From Methanolobus tindarius DSM 2278 (GTDB taxonomy: Archaea > Halobacteriota > Methanosarcinia > Methanosarcinales > Methanosarcinaceae), in the NCBI RefSeq assembly GCF_000504205.1, contig NZ_AZAJ01000001.1:3012879-3076878 (forward strand): a stretch of DNA of 64,000 nucleotides, given 5' to 3'. Below are positions 4,840 through 26,011 of this stretch, piece after piece. The notes below the pieces were generated by a model, which saw only the letters and a list, made by a program, of their open reading frames with translations, was not told where the DNA came from and made no database searches. The position numbers and the translations under genes are program-made. Every line of letters begins with the position of its first letter. Within the stretch, counting starts at the first letter, position 1.

Positions 4840-4849
4840 AAGATAAAGC

Positions 4850-5155
4850 ATGTCAAAATATGACTTCTTCTCAGATTTAGTAGCAAGCATATTAGATGAC
4901 CCGATAGGTTTCTTGAAATCGTTCATCATGCTAGCGGTTCCATCAGGGGCATTGATGTGGGTTTTAATAGTTGGCACTTATGCTGAAAATACTGGGCATG
5001 GATTTATAGGTTGGTTGTTTTTATCCTTCTATGGTTTTATAGACAAAATCACTTTATTCATAGTTGAAACGTTTATTGAACTGGTTGTTTATGTTGTTGT
5101 TATGGTTACTATTGTTACATCTCTGTTAGCAGCATTTGGAATAAAAATAAAGTAG
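4850..5155 (+). CDS. Small membrane protein (casposon cargo)
   Basis: 101 residues with two or three hydrophobic segments: about 22-43 (SFIMLAVPSGALMWVLIVG), about 50-65 (GFIGWLFLSFYGF) and about 72-98 (a very hydrophobic Val/Ile-rich helix). No family is recognised. It starts 10 bases after the nuclease-like gene and ends 11 bases before the convergent polB gene. A small membrane protein next to a nuclease can be an effector or anchor in defence modules, but that is only a contextual guess. Confidence 0.65.
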   Translation: MSKYDFFSDLVASILDDPIGFLKSFIMLAVPSGALMWVLIVGTYAENTGHGFIGWLFLSFYGFIDKITLFIVETFIELVVYVVVMVTIVTSLLAAFGIKIK

Positions 5156-5166
5156 AGGAATACTTG

Positions 5167-7857: not shown

Positions 7858-8182
7858 TTACTGTCATCTCTTTGGCAAGGTTGACTATACGCTCTCCCAT
7901 CAGTTTCAATAACGCACCCATTGAAAGAAGAATGAAAGCTGTTTTGTTTTGCACGCAAGCATCACTTGCCCGTTCTCTAGGGCTGAATGTGTTCTGTTCT
8001 TCCGTTATGGGAGAATGGCAATTCTTACAGAGTGGTTCAGTCCAACCCGAATTACTTCTGCCTTCAACATGGTGGTCTTCAATAGCTGTGGGTTTATCTT
8101 CTCCACAAACACAACATGCCATCGGTGGCTTTTTCCCTTTTTTGTTCCTCTTAGTGTAGTTTGCATAAGCTTGTTTTTCCAT
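7850..8182 (-). CDS. HNH endonuclease
   Basis: 110 residues from the ATG at 8182, which has AAGGAG 9 bases upstream; a GTG at 8191 is in frame but too close to that site. The core has a zinc-binding CxxC (CCVCGED), then EDHHVEG with the catalytic His pair, then PLCKNCH: a classic HNH/beta-beta-alpha-metal nuclease. HNH proteins are common in casposons and may process ends or target DNA. It lies between the 213-aa gene (3-base gap) and polB (8-base overlap), so it is translated as part of the leftward operon. Confidence 0.88.
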   Translation of the reverse strand: MEKQAYANYTKRNKKGKKPPMACCVCGEDKPTAIEDHHVEGRSNSGWTEPLCKNCHSPITEEQNTFSPRERASDACVQNKTAFILLSMGALLKLMGERIVNLAKEMTVNV

Positions 8183-8194
8183 AGTGTTCACTCC

Positions 8195-8836
8195 TTAGTT
8201 CTGGTATATTTCAAGAAATTCAGGCTCTTCCTGAGCTTCCATTATTTCATAGAGCCTGTCAAGGTCTGTTTCAAAATGATGCACTTTTCCATCTGCATCA
8301 ACGATCTTGATGTCTTCGTACTTTGCTAAGCGTTCGGTTTCCCCATCTTTCAATGATTTTTCAACTGCATCTCTGTATTCAGCAAGTAAAAAACGGTCTT
8401 TTGAGCTTGTTGTAATTATTGTAATATGACCTTCATTTCTGTCATAGAACCCCATTTCAACTTGCAAACTGTCCGATTTAGTAGCTTTCCATCTTCCATT
8501 TTCTTTGTGCAAGTATTGTCCTAGGTGTTTGATAGCATCCTTGTTCTTCATATCGAACTTTTTTGTCATCTGGCTAAGGTTCGCACCTTTCCTCATTGCC
8601 CTCAAAATTTGAAGAGATTTATTTCTCTCTATCTTTTGCAGTGGTGTCAAACTTTCCCATCCTGCTTTAGAGAGATCATAATCACTTATCTTGAGCTTCA
8701 CCAATTGGCTTCTGCTTTTATCAGGAAATAGCAGATGTTTTCTGATAATCTCCTTTGCATATCTTGTATCTCTTGGTTTAGCTTTGAGCCATTCACCATA
8801 GGTACGATATTCTTTCGAGAATCGTGGTCTGCTCAT
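8195..8836 (-). CDS. Casposon conserved protein with helix-turn-helix-like middle
   Basis: 213 residues, basic N-terminal half and acidic C-terminal half. A helical stretch near residues 75-110 (ILRAMRKGANLSQMTKKF, then a helix with GQYLHKENGRWKA) looks like a DNA-binding helix-turn-helix followed by a wing, but the match is loose. No catalytic motif was seen. Its ATG overlaps the TGA of the ribbon-helix-helix gene (ATGA), and HNH follows 3 bases after its stop region, so translation is coupled. The role is likely linked to DNA handling by the casposon. Confidence 0.7.
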   Translation of the reverse strand: MSRPRFSKEYRTYGEWLKAKPRDTRYAKEIIRKHLLFPDKSRSQLVKLKISDYDLSKAGWESLTPLQKIERNKSLQILRAMRKGANLSQMTKKFDMKNKDAIKHLGQYLHKENGRWKATKSDSLQVEMGFYDRNEGHITIITTSSKDRFLLAEYRDAVEKSLKDGETERLAKYEDIKIVDADGKVHHFETDLDRLYEIMEAQEEPEFLEIYQN

Positions 8837-8973
8837 CCATCATCCTCCAAGAGCCTGATGAATGCAATTCTCAACACTTCAGCCTGAGAACAGCCATATT
8901 CTTTTGCTTTCTTTACGAGCTTCTCCCTGAGATAGGGAGCTAAAGTTATTGTCAGTCTGTTTGTTGGTGTCAT
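8833..8973 (-). CDS. Ribbon-helix-helix transcriptional regulator (46 aa)
   Basis: A short gene missed by length filters. It starts at ATG 8973 with GGTGA six bases upstream; an upstream in-frame ATG at 8988 would swallow that site and is less likely. The protein begins MTPTNRLTITLAPYLREKL and continues through a basic helix, a turn (GCSQAE) and a second helix (VLRIAFIRLLEDDG). This is the pattern of MetJ/Arc-type repressors: a beta strand with alternating residues, then two helices. It heads the leftward operon, its TGA overlaps the next ATG, and it faces an intergenic region with four AATT(T)GAC motifs, so autoregulation of both divergent casposon operons is a reasonable inference. Confidence 0.75.
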   Translation of the reverse strand: MTPTNRLTITLAPYLREKLVKKAKEYGCSQAEVLRIAFIRLLEDDG

Positions 8974-9014
8974 TTTGTTCACCAACATCTAATAGAAATA
9001 CTTATTACATATTC

Positions 9015-9099
9015 AAATTTGACATCGAATTTGACTACTTATTTAATGTATGCTGTCTATAATAAAAATGTAATTGACTTTAGTTAAAAGAGAATTGAC
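9015..9099. promoter_or_regulatory. Repeated AATT(T)GAC motifs in the divergent casposon promoter region
   Basis: Copies at 9015-9023 (AAATTTGAC), 9027-9035 (GAATTTGAC), 9071-9078 (TAATTGAC) and 9092-9099 (GAATTGAC). The first pair are 12 bases apart and the second pair 21 apart, all on the same strand. A near match, AAATTTGTC, follows at 9112-9120. They lie between the leftward RHH operon and the rightward wHTH-cas1 operon. They are good candidate operator sites for the ribbon-helix-helix protein, which typically binds short repeats in tandem. Confidence 0.5.
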
Positions 9100-9120
9100 T
9101 ATGATAATAGGAAATTTGTC

Positions 9121-10002
9121 ATGAATTCTACAAAAAATAGCATCGATTTCAAAACAGATATAATAAATTATCTGTCGGGTTACCGCGTTGTGAAGAAGGG
9201 AGAAATTATTAAGGAATTTCTGAGCAGATATCCACGTGGTTATAGTAAAAGAACAATTGAAAGAAGATTAAAAGACTTTGAAAAAGATGGTATTATAGAA
9301 ATAATAGATGCTAAGCAAGTCAAGAAATATGGTGTCAATGAGTCAGATCACCGTGTAAAATACATCATTCTGAAAGAACACGCTGAAATAAAAAAACATA
9401 TTGATTCAGTTTTTGAATTTTTTGATTGTGGTGATTCTGAAGATAAAATGGCTGCTTTAGCAGAAATGAAGACTTATAATGACTGTTATGTTTTAAACGC
9501 CTTACAGTTAGATATTCTTGCTAAAAATCTGACTGAAAACGACATTGAGTTATCATCTCAAATATTCTTGACGATTTTTAATCATATTTTTTATAAAAAG
9601 ATACAACCAAGCGACACCAATGCATTTATAAAAAAGTTGAGATTAATCTTGAAAAGCATACCATCTCAACCTCACACTGCTCTTAGAAAAAATATTATTC
9701 TTTTGCTTAGCATGTACAACGATAAAACTGTAGTTGAACAACTTATTAAAGATGCTACTTCAATGGATAATATCTCAGATGTAAAAGAAATATATGATAT
9801 AGTATACGCGGCAAGAATAATTGAAGAATCAAGGACTGAGCTTTTTAATCTTGAAAGAGAGTTAAAGAAAAAGGGAAAGGAAAAGAATGCCGAAATTATC
9901 TCTCAAATAAGACAGCAGGCAAAAAGAAATATTATCTCTTTAAACGTTAGTAAAGAAGTTCTGTTTAACTGGGTCGAACTTAAAAATGGTGATTTTAAAT
10001 GA
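9121..10002 (+). CDS. Winged-helix protein translationally coupled to cas1
   Basis: 293 residues. The N-terminal 75 residues fit a winged helix: a helix, then VVKKGEIIKEFLSRYPRGYSK, then a recognition helix (RTIERRLKDFEKDGII) and a wing with KKYGVNESDHRVKY. The rest is a run of helices resembling short repeat pairs (residues 95-270), with no enzyme motif. The last four bases ATGA contain the cas1 start codon at 9999, so translation is coupled and the product probably works with the casposase, for example in end recognition or regulation. The exact role is unknown. Confidence 0.72.
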   Translation: MNSTKNSIDFKTDIINYLSGYRVVKKGEIIKEFLSRYPRGYSKRTIERRLKDFEKDGIIEIIDAKQVKKYGVNESDHRVKYIILKEHAEIKKHIDSVFEFFDCGDSEDKMAALAEMKTYNDCYVLNALQLDILAKNLTENDIELSSQIFLTIFNHIFYKKIQPSDTNAFIKKLRLILKSIPSQPHTALRKNIILLLSMYNDKTVVEQLIKDATSMDNISDVKEIYDIVYAARIIEESRTELFNLERELKKKGKEKNAEIISQIRQQAKRNIISLNVSKEVLFNWVELKNGDFK

Positions 10003-11213
10003 AATTCTTGCTGCTAAACGGTCATGGCATAGATGTGCGTGTCAGTGGGGCTAAACTTCATGTTAAGGATGGAAGATATTCGACCACTGAAGACCCTGAA
10101 GAATATGTGTTCTCTCCAAAGAGAATGGACATTGATAGTGTTATTATCTATGGAAGAAAAGGAAACCTTACACTAGATGCTATAAGATGGTTGATAAAAC
10201 ACAATGTACAGATTTCAATACTCAACTGGGATGGGAAGTTACTAACTACAATGCTCCCTCCAGAGAGTACGAATGTCAAGACAAGATTTGCTCAGTATCA
10301 CGCTTTTGAAGATGAGAAAGCAAGGATAAAAATAGCAAAGAATTTCATCGAGGCTAAGTTCGATAAAACTCAAGTAGTACTTGATTATCTCAAACAACGA
10401 TATCCTGAAATTGAATATGATTTCTCACCAGATTTGAAGAAGTTAGATTCTGCTAAGAAGATTAATGATATTCTAGGCGTTGAGGGTGGTGTTGCTTACA
10501 AGTACTGGAATGAGTTCTCAAAGGTTATTCCTGAGAAATACGATTACGAATCAAGGGTTGACCAGAGCCGAAGGGCAACCGGGGCAGGGGACATGGTAAA
10601 CACCATGCTTAACTACGGCTACGCTTTGTTGGAGGCAGAATGCCTCCGCACCATCAATGCAGTTGGGCTAGATTCCCATGTGGGTTTTTTGCATGAAATG
10701 AACACTGGAAAGAATAGTCTGGCTTACGACCTGCAAGAACCTTTCAGGTTCTTAGTGGATTTTGCAGTTATCAGCCTGATAGAGTCAGAAAGGATGGAAA
10801 ACAAGGATTTCATCAGGACAGAGAATTACTCATTGAGGCTTAGACCCAGTGGAGCTAAGAAGCTGACTGAAGAAGTAAATCTGTGGTTTAACAAAAGAAT
10901 TAGCTACAAAGGAAACATGACGATGTGGAGTTATGTCATGTTCCTGAAGACTAGGGAATTAGCTCAATATTTAACTGACAAAAGAAAGGACATTGATTTC
11001 GTTGTCCCTCAGTATGAGACAAAGCGACAGGACACAAGCGACATACGAAAAAAGATTCTAAGCATTTCTTATTCTGATTGGAAAAAGCTAGGTTTCTCTA
11101 AGGGTACTTTGCATTATATGAAGAAAAATGCGAATGCAGACAAGCCTTTTACGCTTAATACTCATAACAAAGAACGCTTGGATAAGTGGGAGAAACTTGT
11201 TGCTAATGGTTGA
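9999..11213 (+). CDS. cas1: Casposase (Cas1-family integrase)
   Basis: 404 residues, longer than CRISPR Cas1 because of a C-terminal DNA-binding extension. The N-terminal beta domain includes VIIYGRKGNLTLDAIRWL (about 46-63). The catalytic helical domain has Glu in LLEAECLR (about 211), His in GFLHEMNTGK (about 231) and the acidic site in YDLQEPFR (about 246), the conserved Cas1 metal site. Residues from about 350 contain SYSDWKKLGFSKGTLHYMK, a helix-turn-helix typical of casposases. The enzyme joins the element's 3' ends to target DNA and makes a short duplication, which is visible here. No cas2 or CRISPR repeat is nearby. A broken, closely similar copy is at 25446-25949. Confidence 0.95.
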   Translation: MKFLLLNGHGIDVRVSGAKLHVKDGRYSTTEDPEEYVFSPKRMDIDSVIIYGRKGNLTLDAIRWLIKHNVQISILNWDGKLLTTMLPPESTNVKTRFAQYHAFEDEKARIKIAKNFIEAKFDKTQVVLDYLKQRYPEIEYDFSPDLKKLDSAKKINDILGVEGGVAYKYWNEFSKVIPEKYDYESRVDQSRRATGAGDMVNTMLNYGYALLEAECLRTINAVGLDSHVGFLHEMNTGKNSLAYDLQEPFRFLVDFAVISLIESERMENKDFIRTENYSLRLRPSGAKKLTEEVNLWFNKRISYKGNMTMWSYVMFLKTRELAQYLTDKRKDIDFVVPQYETKRQDTSDIRKKILSISYSDWKKLGFSKGTLHYMKKNANADKPFTLNTHNKERLDKWEKLVANG

Positions 11214-11235
11214 TTTTATTATCTTTTAGCTGTCC

Positions 11236-11313
11236 TTTTTGTCGTTTTCTACAGGAAATGAGGAGACAAATGTGAACGACAGACAAGAGATAACAACGGA
11301 CAAAACGACAGAC
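11236..11313. repeat. Short AAAACGAC / AACGACAGAC repeats behind cas1
   Basis: In the 228-base gap between cas1 and the KAP gene, AACGACAGAC occurs at 11275-11284 and 11304-11313, and the inverse GTCGTTTT lies at about 11241-11248. This patch is richer in G and C than the AT-rich flanks. The meaning is unknown; it could be a regulatory or terminal-protein site, or chance. After 11313 the gap is AT-rich, with TATA-like sequence before the gene at 11442. Confidence 0.35.
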
Positions 11314-11441
11314 TCCGAAAAGACACGTACATTTTATCTCTTTGTATAATTTAATATATGACTTTTACCATTATATTATTATAATTAAATTCATAAAGTT
11401 AATGTTTGATATAATATTTTTTATGGAAGCGGTGTTCGTAA

Positions 11442-13628
11442 ATGTATAAAATATACGGAGATTCCCCAAAAGAAAATGCTAGTCATTTCAATTTTGATAT
11501 TTATGCAGATTCGTTATTAAAAATCATTCTCAACAACGAAAATAAGACTCCTTTTACAATAGCGATTAATGGGAAGTGGGGGACTGGAAAAACAACTCTG
11601 ATGAAAACATTAAAAAAACAGTTGGATACTTCTACACCTACTGAACAAACAAGAAAAGTTAAAACCGTATGGTTCGATGCTTGGAAATATTCAGAATGTG
11701 ACTCAATGTTATCAGCCTTAATGCGCGAAGTTTTTGAGGAAATGAGGAGACAGGACAAGCTAAGTAAACTAAAATCTAAGTCTTGGTTTGGTCTACGGAA
11801 AGTAAATACTCCAAAGGTAATGACAGATATTACAAAAATGTTGAGTGCAGGCAAACTAGAACCAGAATTTGAAAAATGGGTTGGGAAAAAAGCATATGAA
11901 GAAAAACTTTCCTTTTATGATATTTTTCAGGATGGTATGAAGGAAATCCTTCAAAATTTTGTTCTCGAAAAGACTGATGATAAATACTCGGATGAAAAAG
12001 GAATTCTCGTAATTTTTATTGATGATTTAGACAGATGCTCTCCAAAAAATATTGCATCTATTTTAGAATCTATCAATTTATTTTTGGATCAAGAAGGATG
12101 TTTTTTCATAATAGGAACTGATATCTCCATAATCGCAAACGCAATTGAAGCGAAATATAAAAATATTGACGACTTTTCAGGCATTGAATATATAAAGAAA
12201 ATAATTCAGTTAAAATTTGATCTTCCACTTCTTAAAGAGAATGATATTGAGTATTTCATGCAAAATGAATTGAAAGTTGATTCTAAATTAGATGATTATT
12301 CAGACATAATTGTCAAAGGTCTAAAAAAGAATCAAAGAGAGATCATAAGATTTTTAAACACAATAAACTTAATGAGGATTCTTGGTGCATCTCTTGAAAG
12401 TAAAGACACGTCTCCTGAAGATAAATTTGCATATAATGATGAACTTTTAATAAAATGGAATATTCTAAATTTCTCTTCACCTGATTTTATAGATGATATC
12501 AAAATAAAAAATGACGTTCTTTTTGAAATTCAAGCCATTGCTAGAATAAATGATAAAAAAAGAGATGAACGGATTCAAAGTTTGAAAAAAGATGGTAAAG
12601 AAAAATATTATTCGTACTGTCAAAATGAGAAGATTATCGATGTTTTGTCAAGTGGAAAAGACGAATTTAATGCTAGTAACATTGAAACTTACTTGTTCCT
12701 AAGTAGTATTACTCCAAAAGACATAGACGAGGAACTTCACAAAAAAGCAGAGGCAAAGATCTCACTAGCCGAAAAGGTGAGTTCTATATATGCTGTAGCA
12801 CCAGGTACTGTTTACGAGGGAGACACAACATATACTGGTACAGACCTTCATGATATAATCGGTTTAGATGATGAAAAGTACATCGAAATAAACGCAACTA
12901 ACTTTACTGGTTTCATTTCACAGGAAAAACTCAAGATTTATGGTGGGTCTTTTGTCGATGATAGAACTATTAAGAAGGGAGGACTTGTATACGAAACCCA
13001 AATTGAACAGATGGATTTTCAATCTGATGCATGGAAGGACACCTATAGCATTATGGAATTATTTGGGTATGTGTATGTTCCATTAAAGAATAATACGCCA
13101 AACAAGTTAACAAAGCTACTCATTAACAGTGGTGACAAGTACACTCTGAGACTTGGTTCTGCACTCGAGCTCGCTGATGGGTATGAACTCACTGCAAAGC
13201 AGATTAATGTAACTGGTGACAGAGTGTGGATGGAATTATCAAAGAACGGTGAATTCATAGAAGATAAAGTAATCCATGTTGACGAGAAAACAGATGGAAC
13301 ATGGATATATGATACCGATATTGCAGATGAGGTTAATGTTGAAGTTTTCAGAGTGAATGTAACTAATTTATTCCAAGGACAGGAAGATAGCCTTGTTGTA
13401 GTCGAAGGCATCTGGCTAATTGATTACGAGAATGTCCTTGAGATTGACATCGGTGATGAATTTGGTGTCTTGAAAGTTGACCGTATTGCTGATAGTTCAA
13501 TCATTATGGTAAATGAAGAGTCAATACTTTTAATAAGAAATTCAATACAAGAAATCGCAGAAGGCATGAAATTCAAAGTTGCTGATTCAGATGATCTTAC
13601 GTTCAACCTGATTAGAGTGTATGAATAA
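11442..13628 (+). CDS. KAP-family P-loop NTPase (casposon cargo)
   Basis: 728 residues. The Walker A motif GKWGTGKTT lies near residues 44-52 and the Walker B VIFIDDLDRCSP near 186-197; the IDDLDRC form is the hallmark of the KAP branch of STAND-like NTPases. FDAWKYSE (about 75) is another KAP signature. The usual transmembrane insertion is not obvious. The C-terminal 270 residues are beta-rich and acidic and look like a separate sensing or binding domain. KAP NTPases are frequent in anti-phage defence loci and mobile elements. GGTG lies upstream of the ATG at 11442. Its own promoter is likely because 228 bases separate it from cas1. Confidence 0.85.
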   Translation: MYKIYGDSPKENASHFNFDIYADSLLKIILNNENKTPFTIAINGKWGTGKTTLMKTLKKQLDTSTPTEQTRKVKTVWFDAWKYSECDSMLSALMREVFEEMRRQDKLSKLKSKSWFGLRKVNTPKVMTDITKMLSAGKLEPEFEKWVGKKAYEEKLSFYDIFQDGMKEILQNFVLEKTDDKYSDEKGILVIFIDDLDRCSPKNIASILESINLFLDQEGCFFIIGTDISIIANAIEAKYKNIDDFSGIEYIKKIIQLKFDLPLLKENDIEYFMQNELKVDSKLDDYSDIIVKGLKKNQREIIRFLNTINLMRILGASLESKDTSPEDKFAYNDELLIKWNILNFSSPDFIDDIKIKNDVLFEIQAIARINDKKRDERIQSLKKDGKEKYYSYCQNEKIIDVLSSGKDEFNASNIETYLFLSSITPKDIDEELHKKAEAKISLAEKVSSIYAVAPGTVYEGDTTYTGTDLHDIIGLDDEKYIEINATNFTGFISQEKLKIYGGSFVDDRTIKKGGLVYETQIEQMDFQSDAWKDTYSIMELFGYVYVPLKNNTPNKLTKLLINSGDKYTLRLGSALELADGYELTAKQINVTGDRVWMELSKNGEFIEDKVIHVDEKTDGTWIYDTDIADEVNVEVFRVNVTNLFQGQEDSLVVVEGIWLIDYENVLEIDIGDEFGVLKVDRIADSSIIMVNEESILLIRNSIQEIAEGMKFKVADSDDLTFNLIRVYE

Positions 13629-13647
13629 TCTCTAAATTAATTGAAGC

Positions 13648-13818
13648 CGGATTGTTCAGCAGATACTCACATTGCCTCAAAAGGTAGCTGAGGAATTAGG
13701 AGTTGATAGGAAAACCTTCAAGACAACAAAGAAAGCCATAGGTGAGGCTTTAAGAAAGGGTGAAAAGGTTAATTTATTTACTCCTGTAAGAAAAAGGTTA
13801 GTAGAATATCTCATTTGA
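13648..13818 (+). pseudogene. polB: polB 3'-end fragment, inverted relative to polB
   Basis: The reading frame codes for about 56 residues that match the last 57 of the casposon PolB: IVQQILTLPQKVAEELGVDR, then a segment ending VRKRLVEYLI and TGA at 13816-13818. It has no start codon or upstream polymerase, so it is a remnant. Because it is on the + strand and polB is on the - strand, the two make a long imperfect inverted repeat (5170-5340 against 13648-13818). It starts 19 bases after the KAP gene and probably derives from an earlier casposon. Confidence 0.85.
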
Positions 13819-13836
13819 ATATTCTACATTTTAACT

Positions 13837-15531
13837 TCAAGTAAACCACAATTCATCAAAATATATTTCCTTACCTACAAGTATACTTTTTATTTCCTCA
13901 ATATTTATCCTTGAAATATCTTTTTTGATAACTAAAGCTAGTACGCTTTGAGAAAAATAATCCTCATTTTCATTTGCAGCAATTATACTCTTTTTTAATA
14001 ACGGGTAGATTTCTTCTATAAATTTATCATTTAATTCATTTGAGTACAATATTAAATTGTAGCATGCTGATAATGTCACTAAAGGATTTTTTTCATAATT
14101 CGAAACTAAACAGTCCAAATAAACCGGTGCATCCCCTATAGTTTGAGAATTTAATCCTCCATGATGGCTTATCTTTTCAATAAGGTTTGCAAGACCATGT
14201 CTAAATTCTTCATCTGATTTTTTATCTTCTGCAATTTTACTTAATTGCTCTTCGAATTCACTTAATAATTCAGGGACATATCCTAGGTATAGAAGCATGT
14301 CATCGAAAGTAGATGAATAGTTCTTCCCCGTTTCTAATTCGCGCAATGCATCATTAAACCAATCATCATAATATTCTTTGATTAATATTGAAGTGTTCAG
14401 TTCAAAAGGAATACGTTCAATGTCCCAGCAAACTTGAGATAAAAGCTTTTTAAACAAAATCGAATAATCTTCGTTTTCTTCTTCAAGACCCAAATCTTTG
14501 TTCATTTTTTGTATACTTTTGGGAGAATGGCCATGAGCTGCTGATGAATTTCTAAACTTATTTAATAATTTTAAGTTAGATGTTTTCTCAGTAATCTCAT
14601 TCATTTTTTTTTCGAAAAATTTCTGATTTTCAAAATCTTCCTCATTAGTATCCCATTTATATAAGTTCTCAAATTCTGTTTTTATTAGTTTGTGAAAATC
14701 ATCTCTACTATTGTTATAATTCTCAATATCCACAACTTTTTGTCCATAGTATTGTTCGTGAATATTATCAACTAATAGAAAACGCTTTAAAAGTTCTAAG
14801 CCTCTTAATGGGCGAATGAAAGAATCATAGTGTTTAGAAGCTTTATCGTTTAATCCGTCTGGTTTTACAGAAATTAATGTTAACGTAGAAGAAGGGTATT
14901 TTACATTTTCATCCAACCGATTAAGCAATTTACTCAACAATTTAGTATTTACTGAATCAATTACTAAACAGTTTAATGTAACAACTTTCATTTCAAATTC
15001 TTCAGCTGAAGTGGATTCGTTCATCACTTTTTTCAAAAAACGCAAATGGTAGTCTGCGTGTTCTAAATCAAAAAGATTATCATTAAATAAGTCTGTGTTA
15101 AAATGACTAGCTTCAGGATAGTAAAGTTTAATTTTGTTTTTCATCTGAGAATTGACCATTTCCATAGAACGAACTAAACGATTGATGGTAAATCTGAAAT
15201 CAGTATAGTGATCAGTTAAATCAACTTCACTTGGAAGAATATTATATAATTTCCAATGTTCTAATTCTTCATCAGGAAGCCCTTCACCTAAATCACCCAA
15301 ATTAACAACTATTATTCCATTAGCAACCCTATAGCAACCTCTAAAAGTTCCCCATTCATAACCAAATTGTACTGTGCCATTATCTCCTATTTGATAATTT
15401 CTATCCCCTTCGTATTTTTTTAAAACATCATCTCTAAAGTATACAGAAGCCATAAAACAATCATTTTCATGACTTGCTGCTTTTTTTGCGGATTTTAACC
15501 CTTCATCAGTCTCAAATAGAACGTCATCCAT
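13837..15531 (-). CDS. Large unknown protein with HEPN-like R-x5-H motif (casposon cargo)
   Basis: 564 residues, not recognised as a whole. The N-terminal 80 residues are beta-rich (VYFRDDVLKKYEGD, then GYEWGTFRGCYRVANGIIVVNLG). The rest is helical. Near residues 326-332 the sequence FRNSSAAHGH fits R-x5-H, within the R-x4-6-H pattern of HEPN ribonucleases, and lies in a helical context as expected. HEPN proteins often act in abortive infection or toxin modules, but a short motif is weak evidence. The gene lies alone between the polB fragment and the right end of the casposon, and is divergent from region 3. Codon use is strongly AT-biased, as in 2705-3778. Confidence 0.7.
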   Translation of the reverse strand: MDDVLFETDEGLKSAKKAASHENDCFMASVYFRDDVLKKYEGDRNYQIGDNGTVQFGYEWGTFRGCYRVANGIIVVNLGDLGEGLPDEELEHWKLYNILPSEVDLTDHYTDFRFTINRLVRSMEMVNSQMKNKIKLYYPEASHFNTDLFNDNLFDLEHADYHLRFLKKVMNESTSAEEFEMKVVTLNCLVIDSVNTKLLSKLLNRLDENVKYPSSTLTLISVKPDGLNDKASKHYDSFIRPLRGLELLKRFLLVDNIHEQYYGQKVVDIENYNNSRDDFHKLIKTEFENLYKWDTNEEDFENQKFFEKKMNEITEKTSNLKLLNKFRNSSAAHGHSPKSIQKMNKDLGLEEENEDYSILFKKLLSQVCWDIERIPFELNTSILIKEYYDDWFNDALRELETGKNYSSTFDDMLLYLGYVPELLSEFEEQLSKIAEDKKSDEEFRHGLANLIEKISHHGGLNSQTIGDAPVYLDCLVSNYEKNPLVTLSACYNLILYSNELNDKFIEEIYPLLKKSIIAANENEDYFSQSVLALVIKKDISRINIEEIKSILVGKEIYFDELWFT

Positions 15532-15692
15532 AAAAATACACCTAATATAAATGTAAATAGTGCTTTATTAAGAATTAGATACTTATAATATTTATTATTA
15601 ATACGACTGACATTATAAACATAAGTCAAGATGAAATTGTTTTTTAAAAATGGATTTTTAAGGTTTCAATAATCAAAAATAAATGCATAAAA

Positions 15693-15730
15693 TTAAAAGA
15701 GTGGCATTTTTGGATATTACCTATTACCCC
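15693..15730 (-). repeat. Casposon right terminal inverted repeat
   Basis: Reverse complement begins GGGGTAATAGGTAA and matches the left repeat at 32 of 38 positions. It ends in CCCC at 15727-15730, directly against the right target duplication. The rest of the 15532-15853 gap holds this repeat, the duplication, a second left-end repeat and AT-rich sequence; no gene is seen there. Confidence 0.85.
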
Positions 15731-15742
15731 GCATATTTTTAT
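15731..15742 (+). repeat. Target-site duplication, right copy
   Basis: GCATATTTTTAT, identical to 2522-2533 at the 3' end of tRNA-Leu. Confidence 0.85.
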
Positions 15743-15766
15743 GGGGATATATATAACGTCTAAAAA
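15743..15766 (+). repeat. Second left-end casposon repeat, degenerate
   Basis: Begins GGGGATATATATAACG and, in its first 19 bases, differs from the intact left repeat (2534 on) at only four positions; similarity then fades in A-rich sequence. It sits directly behind GCATATTTTTAT, so this place has the same order (target, then left end) as 2522-2571. It is best read as the left end of an older element that occupied the same site. No matching right end was found near 25.2-26.1 kb. Confidence 0.7.
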
Positions 15767-15853
15767 AGTGTACGCTTTTGTCTAACACTTTTAATTTTAA
15801 GTACTTGTTTAATTGACAACGTTTATTATATGTGAAGTGTTAAAATATTTGTA

Positions 15854-16333
15854 ATGAGCCAGAGAAACAAAGGTTTAGAACCAATAATTAATGACAACAC
15901 AGAAATATTGATTCTCGGAACTTTTCCTGGTGAAAAATCAAGGGATAAAAATCAATATTATTATGATTCTCGAAATCAATTCTGGAATATAATGTGTGAT
16001 GTGCTTAATACCAGCTTTTTGAATTTAGAATATAGTAACAGAATTCATATTCTACAGGAATGCAAAATAGGATTATGGGATATTATAGAATCTTGTGAAA
16101 TAGAAGGTAGTTTAGACAAAAACATCAAAAACCCAGAGTATAATGATTTTTCTCATTTAACTCAGATAAAGAAAATAATCTGTAATGGAAAAGCAACAGA
16201 AAATAAATACAAAGAACATTGCAAAATCCTATATAATGTAGAGGTTTTAAGGGTTCCATCTTCAAGTTCTGCAAATAATGGTTCAATTGGTCGTTCTGAA
16301 CAATGGAAAAATTCAATAAATAGTCAAGTTTAA
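15854..16333 (+). CDS. Uracil/hypoxanthine-DNA glycosylase-like protein (UDG superfamily)
   Basis: 159 residues. The N-terminal active-site motif is ILILGTFPGEKS (about residues 18-29), followed by YYYDSRNQFWNIM. The C-terminal motif is VPSSSSANNGSIG, the counterpart of LPSTSPAN in the family-6 (hypoxanthine) and related glycosylases. Family-6 members remove hypoxanthine (deaminated adenine) from DNA; this role is inferred from motif spacing. It is transcribed towards and convergent with hsdR, with 31 bases between them. It lies just inside the older element left end and shares its low GC content. Confidence 0.8.
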   Translation: MSQRNKGLEPIINDNTEILILGTFPGEKSRDKNQYYYDSRNQFWNIMCDVLNTSFLNLEYSNRIHILQECKIGLWDIIESCEIEGSLDKNIKNPEYNDFSHLTQIKKIICNGKATENKYKEHCKILYNVEVLRVPSSSSANNGSIGRSEQWKNSINSQV

Positions 16334-16364
16334 AAATTCAGGTGACTTTTATTTTAAAAGTCAC

Positions 16365-19262
16365 TTAATAGTGCTCTCTGATATATTCATAAGCCTTATC
16401 AAACAATTCTCGTTCTTTATGCAACTTGTATTTCAACAAAGTCTTACTTAACGCCTTTTGAACATCCCTCTCCCCTGATGATGTCCATTGCCAGCCATCA
16501 AATCGAGTATATTTAACAACCTCATCAATATCATTAACAATTCTTTCTATGATTGCTGGTGTCGTTTCAATCTTGCATTCAAGGAATAATTTTGTTAATG
16601 CTTGTTTTGTATCATCAACTGGCTCTGCTTCAGTTTCTCTTTCCAGTTTGACTGTGTCACGGGCTATCTCCAGGAGTTTCTTGAGAAAATCAATACTGCT
16701 GATGGCATTTCTGTAATGCATCTCCTTTACTTTCTCCAATCTTTCTCCGAGCTCCTGGAATCTTGGGTCATCCACATGAACGTGTAATCTCCATTCAATC
16801 TTTAAGACAAGCTTCTTTCCTTTTACATCGGCATCTTTATCCGTAAGATGATCAAGGATATTGGCATCCATTATCAGGGTTTCAAGGTCATCCCTGATTG
16901 TTTGCACGGTGACATTTTCATGGATTAGTTTCAGTGTTTTGGCACCAAGGGCATGCCAGATCAGTTTTCCATTACCGCTTGGTGGTCTTATGGACTCATA
17001 GACCTGTGTAAGCCATTTGTAATCCTGTTCATATTCGTTCAAAAATGAATCTGGAGATATAGCTTCCCAGTGACGGGATAAATAAGAGTAATCAGCTGCA
17101 AAGAAATCTCTGCTTTCATCTGTTCTCAGACAATCCTGAGCTGCAAGCAGCCCTTCGTATCCATCCAGAGCTCTGTCAACACCTTCAAAGTGTGAAAGGC
17201 AAGTTTCCAAAGCACGTGGGAACTCTGCTTTTAGCATTTCAATGTTGGAAATTACTGTTTTCATTTCCTCTACATCAAAATCCAAAGCTGATGCTACATT
17301 ATCGAATATCCCAAGGTAGTCAATTATTAGCCCATGGTCCTTGTCTGGGTAAGGTCTGTTAACACGGCAGATTGCCTGCAGAAGGTTATGGTCCTTCATT
17401 GGCTTGTCAAGGTACATTGCCTGGTTGATTGGTGCATCAAATCCAGTAAGCAGTTTTGATGTTACGATAAGAAGTTTCAGTGGGTCATTGGGATCTCTGA
17501 ACCTATCCAGTAGTTTTTCCTGTTCATCATCTGTCAGAGAATAGTTTTGCTTCCAGTAGTCAGAGTCTTTCTGCCTCAGTGTCATAACAACAGCAGACTC
17601 TTCAGGTGGCATGTGTTTGTCTATTTCTTGCTTGTACAGATGGCAAGCTTCTCTGTCCCATACGACAACCTGTCCCTTGAAATCATTGGGATCCACATGT
17701 TTCTTGTAATGCTGGACAATATCCTTACAGACTCTACTGATTCTGGCAGGTGTTTTGGCCAGGACTCCATATTTTCCTGCACGGTCAGAAAGTTCAGATT
17801 TGTCACCGTAGCTGAGGTTATTTTCCTTTGCCATCCAGTCAAATTCTTCATCGATGGCTTTTTTATTAATGTGTAATTCAACGGGACGTGGTTCAAAATA
17901 GATTGGCAGGGTTGCTTTATCTATGATAGACTGTTCGAAAGAGTAACGACTGAGATATCCGTTCTCGTCTTCTTCTGCTCCGAAGGTCCAGAATGTGTTT
18001 CTGTCTCTGGTGTTGATTGGTGTACCTGTGAGACCAAAGAGGAATGCATTTGGAAGAGCTTGTCGCATTTTCGTACCAAGGTCTCCTTCCTGGGTTCTGT
18101 GAGCTTCATCAACAAGGACTATGATGTTTTCCCTGTCGTTGAGGACTCCTTCAGCCTCTCCGAATTTGTGAATAGTTGTGATTATGATTTTCCTTGTGTC
18201 CTGTTTCAGTAGCTGTTCCAGTTCTTCCCTTGAATCAGTCATGACGACATTCGGAACGTTGGAAGCGTTAAAGGTTGCACTTATCTGAGAATTGAGGTCT
18301 ATTCTGTCTACGACCACAAGAACCGTAGGACTCCTGAGTTCAGGGTTACGTCGCAGTTGCATGGCTGCGTATACCATGAGCAAGGATTTACCTGAACCCT
18401 GGAAATGCCATATCAGACCTTTCCTGATCCTTCCATCAATAACTCTCTGAACAATCTGTTTTGCAGCTTCATACTGCTGATAGCGGCAGAGAATCTTAAT
18501 CTTCTGACCACCTTTTGTGGTGCTGTATAAGGTGAAATCTTTCAGTAATTCAAGAACAACTTCAGGTTTTAGCATCCTATTAACGGAGCTTTTGACTTCA
18601 TCCAGCAGATCGAATGCATCTTCCTCAGTCTCTCTCCATGGTTGCCATTTCTCTATTGGTAACTTTATGGAACCTACACGATAGACCTTGCCTTCTGTAG
18701 CAAAACAGAATACATTAGGTACAAAGATCTCAGTAACTGAATTCTGGTACTCTTCAAGTTGGGCAGCTCCATCTACCCATGAAACCGCAGGCCTTACAGG
18801 ACTCTTTGCCTCCCCGATTACTAGTGGAATACCATTAACCAGCAGAACAATATCGGGCCTTCTTTCCTGACCACTCTTAAAGGTGTACTGGGTTGTTACA
18901 ATGAAATCATTGTTTTTGAGATTATCATAATCTATGAGCCTGACAGAAACATGTTCTCCATTCTCCCCGAAAGGCATGGTTTTTTCATTACGAATCCACT
19001 CGGAAAACTCCTCATTTGCTCTCACAAGCCCCATTCCCTTTGCACTCTGAATGATTGCCCGAAGCTTGTAAAGAACTTCATCAGCACGACCTGGCTCTTC
19101 AGCAATGGAAGGATTCAGTCTTATAAGAGAATCGATGAGATGCATCTCAATCAGCACATCAGCTTCTCTCCTTGGAAGCTGCTCTCTTGGTACAAATTTC
19201 CATCCCATATTTGTCAGAAGATCTCTGACAAAATTCTCGACTGCGTTTTCCTCATTGAACAT
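16365..19262 (-). CDS. hsdR: Type I restriction enzyme, R subunit
   Basis: 965 residues. The N-terminal nuclease motif is RRPDIVLLVNG followed by LVIGEAKSP (Asp...Glu-x-Lys, about residues 134-153), a PD-(D/E)XK site. The helicase part has Walker A QGSGKSLL (about 289-296), the DEAH box VDEAHRTQ (about 385), TGTP (near 413) and a later VNRPYPDKDHG motif. HsdR cuts DNA at a distance after ATP-driven translocation when the site is unmethylated. It is the last gene of the operon; its start overlaps the end of the 583-aa gene by 11 bases. All motifs appear intact. Confidence 0.95.
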   Translation of the reverse strand: MFNEENAVENFVRDLLTNMGWKFVPREQLPRREADVLIEMHLIDSLIRLNPSIAEEPGRADEVLYKLRAIIQSAKGMGLVRANEEFSEWIRNEKTMPFGENGEHVSVRLIDYDNLKNNDFIVTTQYTFKSGQERRPDIVLLVNGIPLVIGEAKSPVRPAVSWVDGAAQLEEYQNSVTEIFVPNVFCFATEGKVYRVGSIKLPIEKWQPWRETEEDAFDLLDEVKSSVNRMLKPEVVLELLKDFTLYSTTKGGQKIKILCRYQQYEAAKQIVQRVIDGRIRKGLIWHFQGSGKSLLMVYAAMQLRRNPELRSPTVLVVVDRIDLNSQISATFNASNVPNVVMTDSREELEQLLKQDTRKIIITTIHKFGEAEGVLNDRENIIVLVDEAHRTQEGDLGTKMRQALPNAFLFGLTGTPINTRDRNTFWTFGAEEDENGYLSRYSFEQSIIDKATLPIYFEPRPVELHINKKAIDEEFDWMAKENNLSYGDKSELSDRAGKYGVLAKTPARISRVCKDIVQHYKKHVDPNDFKGQVVVWDREACHLYKQEIDKHMPPEESAVVMTLRQKDSDYWKQNYSLTDDEQEKLLDRFRDPNDPLKLLIVTSKLLTGFDAPINQAMYLDKPMKDHNLLQAICRVNRPYPDKDHGLIIDYLGIFDNVASALDFDVEEMKTVISNIEMLKAEFPRALETCLSHFEGVDRALDGYEGLLAAQDCLRTDESRDFFAADYSYLSRHWEAISPDSFLNEYEQDYKWLTQVYESIRPPSGNGKLIWHALGAKTLKLIHENVTVQTIRDDLETLIMDANILDHLTDKDADVKGKKLVLKIEWRLHVHVDDPRFQELGERLEKVKEMHYRNAISSIDFLKKLLEIARDTVKLERETEAEPVDDTKQALTKLFLECKIETTPAIIERIVNDIDEVVKYTRFDGWQWTSSGERDVQKALSKTLLKYKLHKERELFDKAYEYIREHY

Positions 19263-21003
19263 TTTCTGTATTCTCCTCTGAGAAAGAATCTAGAAAATCT
19301 CTAAACTGATCTCTAAACTCATCATAATAAATACCTCTATCCCAAACAGTTCTATCATCATAATGTTCTACAGGATATTTGAGGAAATCTATGAATGATT
19401 GATTTACTACTGAATACCCAGTTACCTTATCTTCAATACACTTATTATATTTTTCTATAAATAATGAAGTTTTCTCTTGATCATGGTATGCTGCAAGTTC
19501 AAAATAATTTTCAATCATTATTTCACGGAGATAATTTTTGAAATAATCTCTCAATACCTGAGAAGAAGATACTTTTTCCATTAAATCAACAATAGTTTTG
19601 ATAGAATATTCTATAATAAGATTATTTTCGGGTGTATACTCATCTTCTTTAACATATCGTATCCAATCTCGAAGGCAATCAGTAATAAGATACAAACAAT
19701 ATTCATACATGTTTGAAAATTCAGCATCTTCGTGATCATTATAACTAATATTGTGTAATATGTGCTCTGACCAATATTTAAAGTATATTAACCACATGTG
19801 ATTATGAATGTTCTGCATTAATGCTTGTTTTACCATAGTGTCAAAGAACTTAATTCCAGAATACAGCGGTGTATTATTTCTCTTTTCGTCATAATATTCT
19901 TCGTAATAATTATATTCATCAATATCTTTACGACTTTGTTCTCGTAAGTGTTGTATTACGTATTCTCCAATTGGCCTCCATACAAGCCATTGGTCATACT
20001 TGTCGCTATCACCATTAGTAAATAAGAAATCAAGAATTTTTGTTTGTCTGGATTTTTCATTGTTGAGTTCTTTGTGAAGCTTGCTTTTTTCATTAGAGAT
20101 TAATTGAGTTCCAATTACAAACCAAGCTTCCTTTTTATTGTATGGTATCTTATTATCAAGAAGCATGAACATTAAATCAGTATTATTCATAGAAACAAAT
20201 TCGAGAAACTCACTATTCCCTACAAGTTCATAGTAGTAATTATTTATAAGCAGGCAATAAGACTCTCTTCTGTTTCGTATAAATCGTAAACGATGAAAAA
20301 AAATTTTAATTAAACTCTTTTCTTTCTTTTTGGTAAGAATAGAAGAAAGTATCCTGCCGAAGCCTTCTGATACTTCTTTCTGCTTTATTTTGTAATCTTT
20401 ATATGAAATAAGCTCTCCTTGCAAGCGTTTAATTGCTGCTTTTGGAGATCGTATATTTTGAAAGTTAATGCTTTTTTGTAGAATTTTTGCTATGTATGTT
20501 ATGTAAGTAAATATGGAATATGGCTTTGTTTTTGGTGGATTATACGATTTGAGAAGGTCATAATGGAATAATTCAAGGTCAGCAGCCACTTCTGCATATT
20601 GTTGTCTTCCAAGTTTATCAAGAGAATTAGAGACAAAATCTTTTTTTTGTTTCAATTTCGTCGAATTCAATTTTCCTTTTGCAAATAAAATCAGAATAAT
20701 AGAAACCAAAAAAGCAAGAACAGAAGCCAAAAAAGAATAAGTTATTTTGTACCCCTCGGATGTTCCTATATCATAAACAAATGGATTTGTTGATAATGAA
20801 ATATTGATGTAATTCCCTGATACTTGTTCCGACCAAAAATTCGCTGCAAAAATAGCAAATATGAGAAGCACTGCAAAATAACCTAAAAATATTTTATCAA
20901 AAAAACCAATTTTGAATACGAAATTTCTCTTCTTAGATTCTTCGCTAATTTGATATATAGAGATAATAAAACCTATAATAGTAAGAGGTAGCATAAAGTC
21001 CAT
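19252..21003 (-). CDS. Membrane protein of unknown function inside the type I RM operon
   Basis: 583 residues. Three membrane segments near the N-terminus are visible: about 3-19 (LPLTIIGFIISIYQIS), 33-53 (FFDKIFLGYFAVLLIFAIFA) and 89-107 (SFLASVLAFLVSIILILFA). The remaining 470 residues are a soluble, mostly helical cytoplasmic region rich in Tyr, Asn and Lys, with no recognised domain. It starts directly after the hsdS stop codon and overlaps the hsdR start, so it is translated with the restriction system. Such an insertion between hsdS and hsdR is not part of the standard operon and may be an added defence or control protein. Confidence 0.8.
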   Translation of the reverse strand: MDFMLPLTIIGFIISIYQISEESKKRNFVFKIGFFDKIFLGYFAVLLIFAIFAANFWSEQVSGNYINISLSTNPFVYDIGTSEGYKITYSFLASVLAFLVSIILILFAKGKLNSTKLKQKKDFVSNSLDKLGRQQYAEVAADLELFHYDLLKSYNPPKTKPYSIFTYITYIAKILQKSINFQNIRSPKAAIKRLQGELISYKDYKIKQKEVSEGFGRILSSILTKKKEKSLIKIFFHRLRFIRNRRESYCLLINNYYYELVGNSEFLEFVSMNNTDLMFMLLDNKIPYNKKEAWFVIGTQLISNEKSKLHKELNNEKSRQTKILDFLFTNGDSDKYDQWLVWRPIGEYVIQHLREQSRKDIDEYNYYEEYYDEKRNNTPLYSGIKFFDTMVKQALMQNIHNHMWLIYFKYWSEHILHNISYNDHEDAEFSNMYEYCLYLITDCLRDWIRYVKEDEYTPENNLIIEYSIKTIVDLMEKVSSSQVLRDYFKNYLREIMIENYFELAAYHDQEKTSLFIEKYNKCIEDKVTGYSVVNQSFIDFLKYPVEHYDDRTVWDRGIYYDEFRDQFRDFLDSFSEENTENVQ

Positions 21004-22206
21004 TTAAACTCGCACCTCTCCTTTCAAACATTCATCCGTTAGTTTCTTCTTTAAATCATACAAATAATCAATATTCTCCAGTGCCTTTTTCTGCAGAACA
21101 TAAAATTGATCAAGTTTTTCAGATATTTGGCATTGCTCTTCAATTGGAGGAACAGCCACGTTGAATAAATCAAAATTCTTTTTGGTTATCGATTTAAATG
21201 TTGAACCATATGATGAATGCTTTATACTTTCAACCAGAATCATTAGTAGATAGTATGCATAGTTTGAAGTAACTTTATCAGTACTGCTAATACCATAACA
21301 AGATTGATTAAAAGCCATCGGTTTTGCAATTTTAGCAACGAGTCCAACAGTTCCTCGAGCAGATATAATTAAGTCATCTTGTTGAAGGAGTTTTGTGGAA
21401 CTTTCATTTAAACCTTTTTCAGTTATCCTTTTAACCGTACTCTCTATATACATTCCATCTTTTGGAAAATCTTCTACAGATATCCATGGAATACTACCGT
21501 TCCAGTATTCTGGGTTTGTAGTTTTGGGAGTGCCACCACCAATGATGGTTATTACATCAGATAAAGGATAAATATTCCACTTTTCAGGTATACTTCCTAT
21601 TTCAGTTTTCTTGAATTTTTCATGTCCGATACCTTTAGTTAATAATTTGTTGAGAAGACCGCATTTTAGTTTTACAGCTACACTTATTACTTCATTGTTT
21701 TTTTCAATGTTATCTTGAATACTCCATATCGTTTCAACAATCTTTTTCTGCTCTTCGATAGAAGGAATTACAACTTCCTCTTCTGCAAGTTGATTCCATT
21801 TTATTCTCTTTGAAAATGCACCAGCTGAAAGTGCTATAATTTTATTCTCGAAAGGTTCAAATTGCATGAAGATAGGCAAAAATCCCTTTATTATGTGCTT
21901 CAGTATTGGCTCTAAAACAATTATATCACCAGAACATACTCCATCAAATGGAGCTACAGATACCCTTCTCAAGTAAGTGTTCCTTCTGGCAAAGAGAATG
22001 TCATCTTTTTCAAATCGTTTCATCGTAGATGTGACATCACTTGTACTGCCATATCGTTTTACAACTAATTCCCCTGAATCAAGATGTTCTAATCCAACGT
22101 ATTTTTCGTAGCCAGATTCACCAGGGTCATCTACTCTAACTGACTTTTGTTTTGCAAGTTCCTTAAACTTGACTTTTATCCAGTTCTCTGGAATTTCCTG
22201 GTTCAA
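21004..22206 (-). CDS. hsdS: Type I restriction-modification specificity subunit
   Basis: 400 residues with two target-recognition domains. The first covers about residues 5-150 and ends in a helical spacer (SIEEQKKIVETIWSIQDNIE...LLNKLLTKGIG). The second begins with the typical EIGSIPEKW at about 203 and ends with PPIEEQCQISEKLDQF and a second helix. Each domain binds one half of a split DNA site, and the helices set the gap. Its ATG overlaps the hsdM stop (ATGA). The site itself cannot be predicted by eye. Confidence 0.93.
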   Translation of the reverse strand: MNQEIPENWIKVKFKELAKQKSVRVDDPGESGYEKYVGLEHLDSGELVVKRYGSTSDVTSTMKRFEKDDILFARRNTYLRRVSVAPFDGVCSGDIIVLEPILKHIIKGFLPIFMQFEPFENKIIALSAGAFSKRIKWNQLAEEEVVIPSIEEQKKIVETIWSIQDNIEKNNEVISVAVKLKCGLLNKLLTKGIGHEKFKKTEIGSIPEKWNIYPLSDVITIIGGGTPKTTNPEYWNGSIPWISVEDFPKDGMYIESTVKRITEKGLNESSTKLLQQDDLIISARGTVGLVAKIAKPMAFNQSCYGISSTDKVTSNYAYYLLMILVESIKHSSYGSTFKSITKKNFDLFNVAVPPIEEQCQISEKLDQFYVLQKKALENIDYLYDLKKKLTDECLKGEVRV

Positions 22207-23696
22207 TTTATAACCTCCTTGAGAACATCTGATAAATTACAATAGGATTCTTTTAGCTGTTGCGAACTATTCTGCCACTCTGAAATAACCTCTTCAATCG
22301 TTATTTCTTCTTGCTGATTCTCTTCTGAAAATTCAGGACGGGCATACAATGCAACATTAATAACATGGTTATTATCTCTTATTTCATCCAATGTAGCAAT
22401 CTTTGTCCTCCCTGGCACTTCCTCAAACTCAGAATACCATTTGTATATACTGGAAATATGTTCTTCTGAAAGGAAACTCTGAGTTTTCTCCTTTACGATC
22501 TGGTCATAGGCTCGGATGAAAAATACTTTTCCTTTACGTTTTTCTGGTTTGTTTTTGTTGCAGACTACAATGCAGGAATCCATTGGTGAATTGTAGAATA
22601 AATTTGGTCCAAGCCCAATTACACAATCCACTAAATCATCTTCTATTAGCTTGCTACGCATATCCAATTCTGCATCTCTGAACAAAATCCCATGTGGCCA
22701 GAGTATTGCACACCTTCCAGTTCTTTTTTTCATGGATGCAATAATGTGCTGGAAGAAAGCATAATCTGCACATCCCTGTGGTGGTGTACCATAGATATTT
22801 CTGCCCCATGGATCATGTTGCCAAGCTTTCTGGTTCCACTTTTTTATAGAATATGGAGGATTGGCCAGAACCATGTCAAACTGTTTAACTCGATCATTTT
22901 CCACAAATGCAGGATTTGATAGTGTGTCTCCTCTTACGATGTGGAAATCCTCGAAACCATGGAGGAACATATTCATCCTTGCGATTGCTGAGGTTATAAT
23001 ATTGATTTCTTGTCCGTACAGACTGATGTTTCTGTATTCCTGGCCGTTTTCCTTGGCCAGAAGAGCGGCGTTGAGTAGCATACCACCTGAACCACAGGTA
23101 GGATCATAGATACTCTCGCCTGTTTTCGGGTCAACTATCATGCTCATCAGGCGTACAACTGTGCGGTTAGTATAGAATTCTGCAGCAGTATGACCGCTAT
23201 CGTCAGCAAACTTCTTGATCAGGTACTCATAGCCTGTACCAAACTCATCCTGTGGTACATTTTTGAGTGAGAGGTTGATAGTTGAGAAATGTTCAACAAG
23301 GTCAATGAGAATCTTATCGGTCAGACGGTTCTTGTTTGTCCAGTTAGTATCCCCGAAAATACCTGCAAGCCTGTCTGGATTGGCCTTCTCAATTTCACTC
23401 ATGGCAGTCTTAATTGCCTTGCCCACATCAGTGGAAACATTCCTGACATCCTCCCAGTGTGCACCCAATGGAACCTGGAATCTGTGGTTCTCTGCAAACT
23501 CCGCGTATTCCTTATCTCCATCAGACTCTTCAAGAGCTTCCTGGTATTCTTCATCATAGACATCAGATATACGCTTAAAGAACATTAACGGGAATATAAT
23601 ACTCTTATACTCTCCTGGATCAATAACGCCTCTGAGAAGCACAGCAGCTCCCCAAAGATACTGCTCAAGTTCCTGCTGAGATATTGTTTTGCTCAT
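22203..23696 (-). CDS. hsdM: Type I DNA methyltransferase subunit (second hsdM)
   Basis: 497 residues. An N-terminal helical domain (QYLWGAAVLLRGVIDPGEYK) precedes the methylase domain. The SAM-binding motif is DPTCGSGGMLL (about 200-210) and the catalytic motif is ANPPYSIKKW (about 280-289): N6-adenine methylation. It has Tyr in the NPPY position, where the upstream copy has Phe. Overlaps at both ends (ATGA with the first hsdM and with hsdS) show coupled translation. The two copies are clearly paralogous along their full length, but diverged. Confidence 0.94.
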   Translation of the reverse strand: MSKTISQQELEQYLWGAAVLLRGVIDPGEYKSIIFPLMFFKRISDVYDEEYQEALEESDGDKEYAEFAENHRFQVPLGAHWEDVRNVSTDVGKAIKTAMSEIEKANPDRLAGIFGDTNWTNKNRLTDKILIDLVEHFSTINLSLKNVPQDEFGTGYEYLIKKFADDSGHTAAEFYTNRTVVRLMSMIVDPKTGESIYDPTCGSGGMLLNAALLAKENGQEYRNISLYGQEINIITSAIARMNMFLHGFEDFHIVRGDTLSNPAFVENDRVKQFDMVLANPPYSIKKWNQKAWQHDPWGRNIYGTPPQGCADYAFFQHIIASMKKRTGRCAILWPHGILFRDAELDMRSKLIEDDLVDCVIGLGPNLFYNSPMDSCIVVCNKNKPEKRKGKVFFIRAYDQIVKEKTQSFLSEEHISSIYKWYSEFEEVPGRTKIATLDEIRDNNHVINVALYARPEFSEENQQEEITIEEVISEWQNSSQQLKESYCNLSDVLKEVIN

Positions 23697-25177: not shown

Positions 25178-25445
25178 TATTGAAATGTCTCCATATTCTG
25201 TTTTGATGGCATCTAAGAAGCCCCTGAATAAATAATAAGTATGTATCAATAAAATGGTTTGAATGCTGTATGTCAGACAACTTCATAACTTTAACTTAAT
25301 AAATTTAAATTTATGTTAATCGTACCTTTTCAAGGTACTTTTCAGTGTTTAATTTATCTTCTAGAAAGGTCTCCTAAGAGTGTATCTAATGTCTCTTGGA
25401 ATTGTATCTCAAATATAGCATGAGAAGATAAAAGAGACAATAAAA

Positions 25446-25949
25446 TCAACTACTTGCAACAAGCTTTTCCCATTGTTCCATGCGTTCTTTATTATGAGCA
25501 TTAAGCGTAAAAGGAGTATCTGCCTTCGCATTTATCTTCATGTAATGCAACGTTCCCTTTGAAAATCCTAGCTTTTTCCAGTCTGAATAAGAAATACTCA
25601 ATATCTTCTGTCGTATGTCGCTTGAGTCTTGTCGCTTTGTCTCATACTGAGGGACAATAAAATCAATGTCCTTTCTTTTGTCTGTTAAATATTGAGCTAA
25701 TTCCCTAGTCTTCAGGAACATGACATAACTCCACATCGTCATATTTCCTTTGTAGCTAACTCTCTTGTTAAACCACAAATTGACCTCTTCAGTTAGCTTC
25801 TTAGCTCCACTTGGTCTGAGTCTGAGTGAGTAATTATCAGTCCTGATGAAGTCCTTCTTTTCCATCCTGTCAGTCTCAATGAGGCTGATTACTGCCATAT
25901 CTACAAGGAATCTAAAAGGCTCTTGAAGGTCATAGGCTAAACTGTTCTT
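25446..25949 (-). pseudogene. cas1: Truncated cas1 (casposase) remnant
   Basis: Codes for the last 167 or so residues of a casposase, starting at KNSLAYDLQEPFRFLVD and ending LVASS. It aligns without gaps to residues from about 237 of the intact cas1 at 9999-11213 and differs at only about a dozen positions. The catalytic Glu and His are lost. Read upstream, the frame meets a TAA and changes into polB-like sequence. Similarity also continues a little past the stop codon (GTTGATTTTATT). This is a dead relative of the intact casposon, on the opposite strand. Confidence 0.92.
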
Positions 25950-26011
25950 TTATCCAGTATTCCAGTTTCCCCACCAAACTTAGCTTCAGGATGATCTACA
26001 TAATCGGTTAA
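25950..26011 (-). pseudogene. polB: polB internal fragment fused to the cas1 remnant
   Basis: Translates as LTDYVDHPEAKFGGETGILDK, close to LEYANHPEAKFDGEAGVLER of the intact PolB (near residue 795-810). It is on the same strand as, and directly upstream of, the cas1 remnant. The joint lies in a CTGGA/A-rich stretch present in both genes, which suggests a deletion through microhomology. Confidence 0.75.

Follow-up and report, generated by a model that had tools for sequence, protein, structure and literature searches.

A predicted casposon and the remains of another stacked behind tRNA-Leu(TAA) in Methanolobus

Results

Casposons at the tRNA-Leu(TAA) locus

The window analyzed herein, a whole stretch of 64,000 nucleotides from a genome of the genus Methanolobus (G000:C1:3012879-3076878), contains a tRNA-Leu(TAA) gene followed by a predicted family 2 casposon (hereafter, the present casposon) and, behind it, by what we classify as the remains of an older one (Table 1). 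Specifically, the present casposon combines a Cas1-type integrase and a family B polymerase with matched terminal inverted repeats and a target duplication of about 14 bp; the HNH endonuclease gene also expected of family 2 is represented by ORF 7850-8191, which appears HNH-like by eye and has no Pfam match at E 0.01. The casposase, whose named relatives are those of M. bombayensis, M. vulcani, and M. profundi, carries the motifs ALLEAE, FLHEMN, and AYDLQE at residues 209, 230, and 242, which we read as its putative catalytic region.

Further, a second copy of the C-terminus of the element's own polB lies at 13636-13812 (85% identical, on the strand opposite to polB), with a weaker similarity to this C-terminus at 13416-13571, and additional polB tails occur near casposons in two other genomes (G006 and G025). 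An open frame at 11442-13628 encodes an unusual fusion, in which a KAP NTPase domain is followed by an S-layer protein domain at the C-terminus.

Table 1. Features of the casposon array behind tRNA-Leu(TAA), in window coordinates
Feature	Position	Strand	Basis
tRNA-Leu(TAA), target gene, leader-like role	2440..2525	+	ARAGORN
Target site duplication, tRNA-side copy, CGCATATTTTTATG	2521..2534	+	Sequence; 14 bp, CGCA start as in M. mazei casposons
Present casposon (predicted)	2535..15729	.	Matched ends, 14-bp duplication, polB and cas1
Left terminal repeat, present casposon, GGGATATAGGTAACATCCAAAAATACCAC	2535..2563	+	Sequence
Family B DNA polymerase, present casposon	5167..7857	-	Pfam DNA_pol_B_2, E 1.2e-10
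Casposase (Cas1), full length	9999..11213	+	Pfam Cas_Cas1, E 4.1e-67
Right terminal repeat, present casposon	15701..15729	-	Sequence
Target site duplication, second copy, identical to 2521-2534	15730..15743	+	
Remains of older casposon, right end lost	15744..26011	.	
Left terminal repeat, older casposon, class '...AAAAAAGTGTACGC'	15744..15775	+	Class as in casposon ends of M. bombayensis and other Methanolobus
Uracil-DNA glycosylase superfamily gene, cargo	15854..16333	+	Pfam UDG, E 4.5e-07
Type I restriction-modification cluster (hsdR, unknown ORF, hsdS, hsdM, hsdM), cargo	16365..25249	-	Syntenic in G024
cas1 remnant, residues 235-404 only, one in-frame stop	25452..25961	-	Sequence comparison
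polB scrap, about residues 784-813	25934..26011	-	blastx, best E 1.4e-05
FKBP lipoprotein gene	28990..29565	+	Conserved in two sister species

A second left end of another class

The register of the target was taken from M. mazei, in which it spans 14 bp, starts with CGCA, and has its first 4 bp inside the tRNA. Directly behind the second target copy, at 15744, another casposon left end begins (GGGATATATATAACGTCTAAAAAAGTGTACGC). A first-pass annotation of this DNA had reported that target and left end occur twice in the same order, which the sequence confirms, although the borders drawn there were off by one to two bases (the true ones are 15730, 15743, and 15744). Across the whole genome, the 14-bp target has two exact copies and one distant match with 1 mismatch, and no third copy was found in the window or the genome; the second left end is single-copy in the genome.

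As drawn in that annotation (2534-2557 and 15743-15766), the two left ends agree at 20 of 24 positions, and every place in the window outside casposon ends has at least 8 mismatches to the first. The likeness claimed for them thus holds insofar as both are casposon ends, but the second is of another terminal-repeat class and is not a copy of the first. When the inner part of the repeat was sorted into several classes, a grouping made by eye, the closest matches to the end at 15744 were the first right end following tRNA-Leu in G004 and both ends of the intact first element at tRNA-Leu(TAA) in M. bombayensis (G001), the latter two being of its class. This class, also written '...GTGTACGC' for the older element's left end, has a AAAAAAGTGTACGC core that recurs in ends of G002, G012, G017, G020, and G023. 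Left and right ends share a class in most complete units, with exceptions in G004 and G012. Judging by their repeats, the two left ends of the window most likely derive from different casposon lineages. Since the classes differ, their divergence gives no age, and the dating by comparison of the two ends that had been proposed was dropped.

The second left end might instead be a duplicate of the present casposon's own left end, produced by local duplication or recombination. The agreement of the outer part accords with such an origin, and in 2014, segmental duplication remained possible for adjacent casposons (PMC4046053). However, the inner part belongs to another class, and what follows it shows no relation to the beginning of the present casposon, so that we consider a duplicated end very improbable.

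It could also be asked whether 15744-15775 is ordinary flank of tRNA-Leu that resembles a casposon end by chance, a concern that the first-pass annotation had itself raised. The 3' flank of tRNA-Leu(TAA) was readable in 24 Methanolobus genomes, and in all 24, GGG[AT][AT]ATA follows exactly after CGCA plus 10 bases, a constancy of offset that ordinary flank could share. Each of these genomes has a casposon-type end there, and no Methanolobus genome with an unoccupied tRNA-Leu(TAA) was found. Yet the class of the inner repeat changes from one genome to the next and usually agrees with that of the element's own right end. Further, the repeat is missing from unoccupied sites: outside Methanolobus, unrelated sequence lies behind many tRNA-Leu genes of this type (e.g., L091, L093, L098, L105-L113, and L133-L137), and tRNA-Leu(TAG), the second such gene in Methanolobus, is unoccupied and without the repeat in about 20 of 26 genomes. 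The repeat is thus not the native flank, and a chance resemblance is extremely unlikely. At tRNA-Leu(TAG), two complete casposons and three identical copies of CGCATCATTTACCT precede plain flank (TTCAAGTTCCCTGA) in M. bombayensis, and the sister species G024 has an empty site with nearly the same flank (TTCAAATTCCCTGA); the two genomes form a clean before-and-after pair for this gene.

Remains of an older casposon

The end of another class behind the right target copy, together with the cas1 remnant and polB scrap that lie some 10 kb beyond it, bears out the earlier suggestion that an older casposon occupied the site. The cas1 remnant comprises the last 170 residues, 89% identical to the present casposase, and is without the ALLEAE and FLHEMN regions, two of the three motifs of the catalytic region. 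The strand of the polB scrap is not the one expected for a single, simply truncated element, and the scrap may stem from a third element. Where an intact casposon would have complete cas1 and polB genes, the older element retains the C-terminal part of cas1 and the polB scrap; its left terminal repeat lies beside a target copy, and a right terminal repeat and right target copy are absent from the genome, for which reason we file it as a casposon remnant rather than an intact casposon. A right end matching the second left end, which the first-pass annotation had proposed to seek within 20-30 kb downstream, was found in neither the window nor the genome with up to 3 mismatches allowed and is lost. 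One further Cas1 of the genome, with weak similarity (31% identity), belongs to a CRISPR-Cas locus and not to a casposon.

Just past the older element, a lipoprotein-like gene (26132-27073) is 58% identical to a relative that, in a genome of another genus (G043), immediately follows a casposon left end. Judging by this relative, debris of the array may extend to the right beyond 26 kb. The FKBP lipoprotein gene probably belongs to the chromosomal backbone behind the array.

The older element in a sister species

In G024, the older element stands directly behind tRNA-Leu(TAA) without the present casposon, and its DNA is 91% identical to the window over 15727-19265 and 89% identical over 21571-25623. 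Given this arrangement, the most likely reading is the one already put forward in the first-pass annotation, namely that the present casposon inserted between the older element and the tRNA. The outermost 40-50 bases in G024 are of the class of the present casposon, not of the older element, and because of this left end, the locus represents a rearranged rather than a pristine pre-insertion state. A similar casposon may once have been there and have been deleted up to the older element, which would explain the class of the end.

The cargo of the older element is unevenly conserved in the two species, with 95-98% identity for hsdR and hsdM and only 54% for hsdS, and, in a comparison of 19252-22206, ORF 19252-21003 is without a match in G024. 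This pattern suggests that the specificity part of the restriction-modification system was exchanged between the window's species and G024.

Junctions and polarity across genomes

Casposon stacking is common in Methanolobus and its family, and the intact copy is usually the one nearest the tRNA. Searching for junctions as a right end, CGCA plus 10 bases, and a left end in succession, we found 51 in 31 of 112 family genomes, with none for the reversed pattern used as a control; among 393 sampled genomes of the phylum, 28 had junctions, and all but three of these belong to the family. Some arrays are longer, with three junctions in a row in G022, three consecutive elements in G023, and three exact copies of one target across about 69 kb in G006.

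Polarity was counted at the 33 junctions with enough flank. The longer cas1 was on the tRNA side at 21 and on the far side at 3 (sign test p 0.0003), or 14 versus 2 with one junction per genome (p 0.004), and the longer polB was on the tRNA side at 17 versus 6 (p 0.03), a bias of which part need not be age, given that deletions can enter an array from the far side and not across the tRNA gene. An age order based on mutations in the target copies was abandoned, as too few arrays have three or more copies; in G022, the copies alternate (...TTTG, ...TTCG, ...TTTG, ...TTCG), and no simple mutation order fits.

Two arrays contain reduced units. In G022, a 6.7-kb unit at 20345-27061 of the region behind tRNA-Leu(TAA) (L039, L063) has matched casposon ends and neither cas1 nor polB, making it a candidate non-autonomous element. 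In another genus, about a dozen right-end bases lie between two target copies behind tRNA-Leu (G070:C31, near 3800; L213 and L081), a relic that we take to be a casposon inside an array, shrunk to almost nothing.

Discussion

Directly observed are the casposon ends and target copies, the remnant genes, the comparison with the sister species, and the lack of the repeat where a site is unoccupied; from these, we infer the following order of insertion events. The 3' end of tRNA-Leu(TAA) would act as a re-usable casposon landing site, at which, very probably, the older casposon inserted first and the present one later, into the same 14 bp beside the tRNA. The second insertion would have copied the target to the far side and pushed the older element off the tRNA, after which that element would have decayed, keeping its cargo and losing the right end, the N-terminus of cas1, and almost the whole of polB. 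Against this scenario count the lack of a surviving right end and third target copy of the older element, the rearranged left end in G024, the lack of an empty tRNA-Leu(TAA) site among the Methanolobus genomes, and the poor fit of the polB scrap to a single truncated element.

The biochemistry of related enzymes suggests how such stacking could arise. For the A. boonei casposase, an upstream motif and the initial target bases are required and the rest of the target can be lost, and that of M. mazei needs the target and 30 bp of tRNA-Leu (PMC6614799, PMC6977970); in vivo, a mini-casposon has inserted into the left target copy of a resident casposon (PMC10359463). By analogy, the window's casposase would recognize its target as these do. 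Because the related casposases depend on the beginning of the target and on the 3' end of the tRNA as an upstream recognition element, each insertion would remake a usable target on the tRNA side, and elements would stack head to tail with the newest at the tRNA, a mode of growth in agreement with all of the present observations. The arrangement of target copies would be identical under the opposite order, in which the present casposon came first and its right target copy later received the other element. However, the upstream sequence that the studied casposases need (the tRNA in M. mazei) is absent at that copy, the decayed element is the distal one, here and in most arrays, and the distal element adjoins the tRNA in G024, all of which makes the reverse order distinctly unlikely.

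Stacking itself is already known, and the window, with the present casposon on the tRNA side of the older one, is a well-supported further case. Tandem family 2 casposons occur in Methanosarcina (Krupovic et al. 2016, as cited in PMC9939771 and PMC6563490), and adjacent casposons in Methanococcoides burtonii and a remnant beside a casposon in Methanolobus psychrophilus have also been reported (PMC4046053). Adjacent or tandem casposons had been described in 2014, in 2016, and in Thaumarchaeota. These cases share with the window the head-to-tail order on one target, the decayed second element in a Methanolobus, and CGCA-type tRNA targets. In contrast to them, the neighbors in the window differ in terminal-repeat class, a difference that favors independent insertion of distinct casposons over segmental duplication, and no readable Methanolobus genome has the site free. 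The tandem of the MetMaz-C1 mini-casposon obtained in vivo (PMC10359463), in which insertion at the resident's left target copy yields the same arrangement, is experimental, whereas that of the window is natural and its distal element then decayed. What is new is a clear natural case of two different lineages at one site, the finding that tRNA-Leu(TAA) is occupied in all readable Methanolobus genomes, and the counting of junctions and their polarity.

The array also resembles CRISPR arrays and Tn7 islands, in which new units enter beside a fixed leader or attachment site and older ones lie further off, and it shares with CRISPR the duplication of a short repeat at each entry; unlike CRISPR, its units are multi-kilobase transposons and not spacers. 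The Tn7 enzymes are unrelated to casposases, from which the CRISPR integrase has been proposed to descend. Natural re-use of the tRNA-adjacent target, with the intact casposon on the tRNA side, is a prediction of this ancestry model. More broadly, we lean, if only slightly, toward the view that, throughout Methanolobus, the 3' end of tRNA-Leu(TAA) serves as an accretion site, at which different casposon lineages would insert in succession and leave in each genome a time-ordered, decaying record, the counterpart at transposon scale of a CRISPR array with growth on the leader side. With one tRNA occupied in 24 of 24 readable genomes and lineages stacked there, many natural arrays are at hand for testing the order, rate, and decay of insertions.

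A CRISPR array lies closely downstream of tRNA-Leu(TAG), itself a casposon target, in the window's genome and three sister species (G000:C1 at about 793-808.5 kb, L074; L205 at 18535-20000; L228, L229, and L231). In M. bombayensis, the two casposons are located between tRNA-Leu(TAG) and the CRISPR array, and in the window's genome, a degenerate repeat-like stretch at tRNA-Leu(TAG) starts within about 10-20 bases of the target-like CGCATCATTTACTA.
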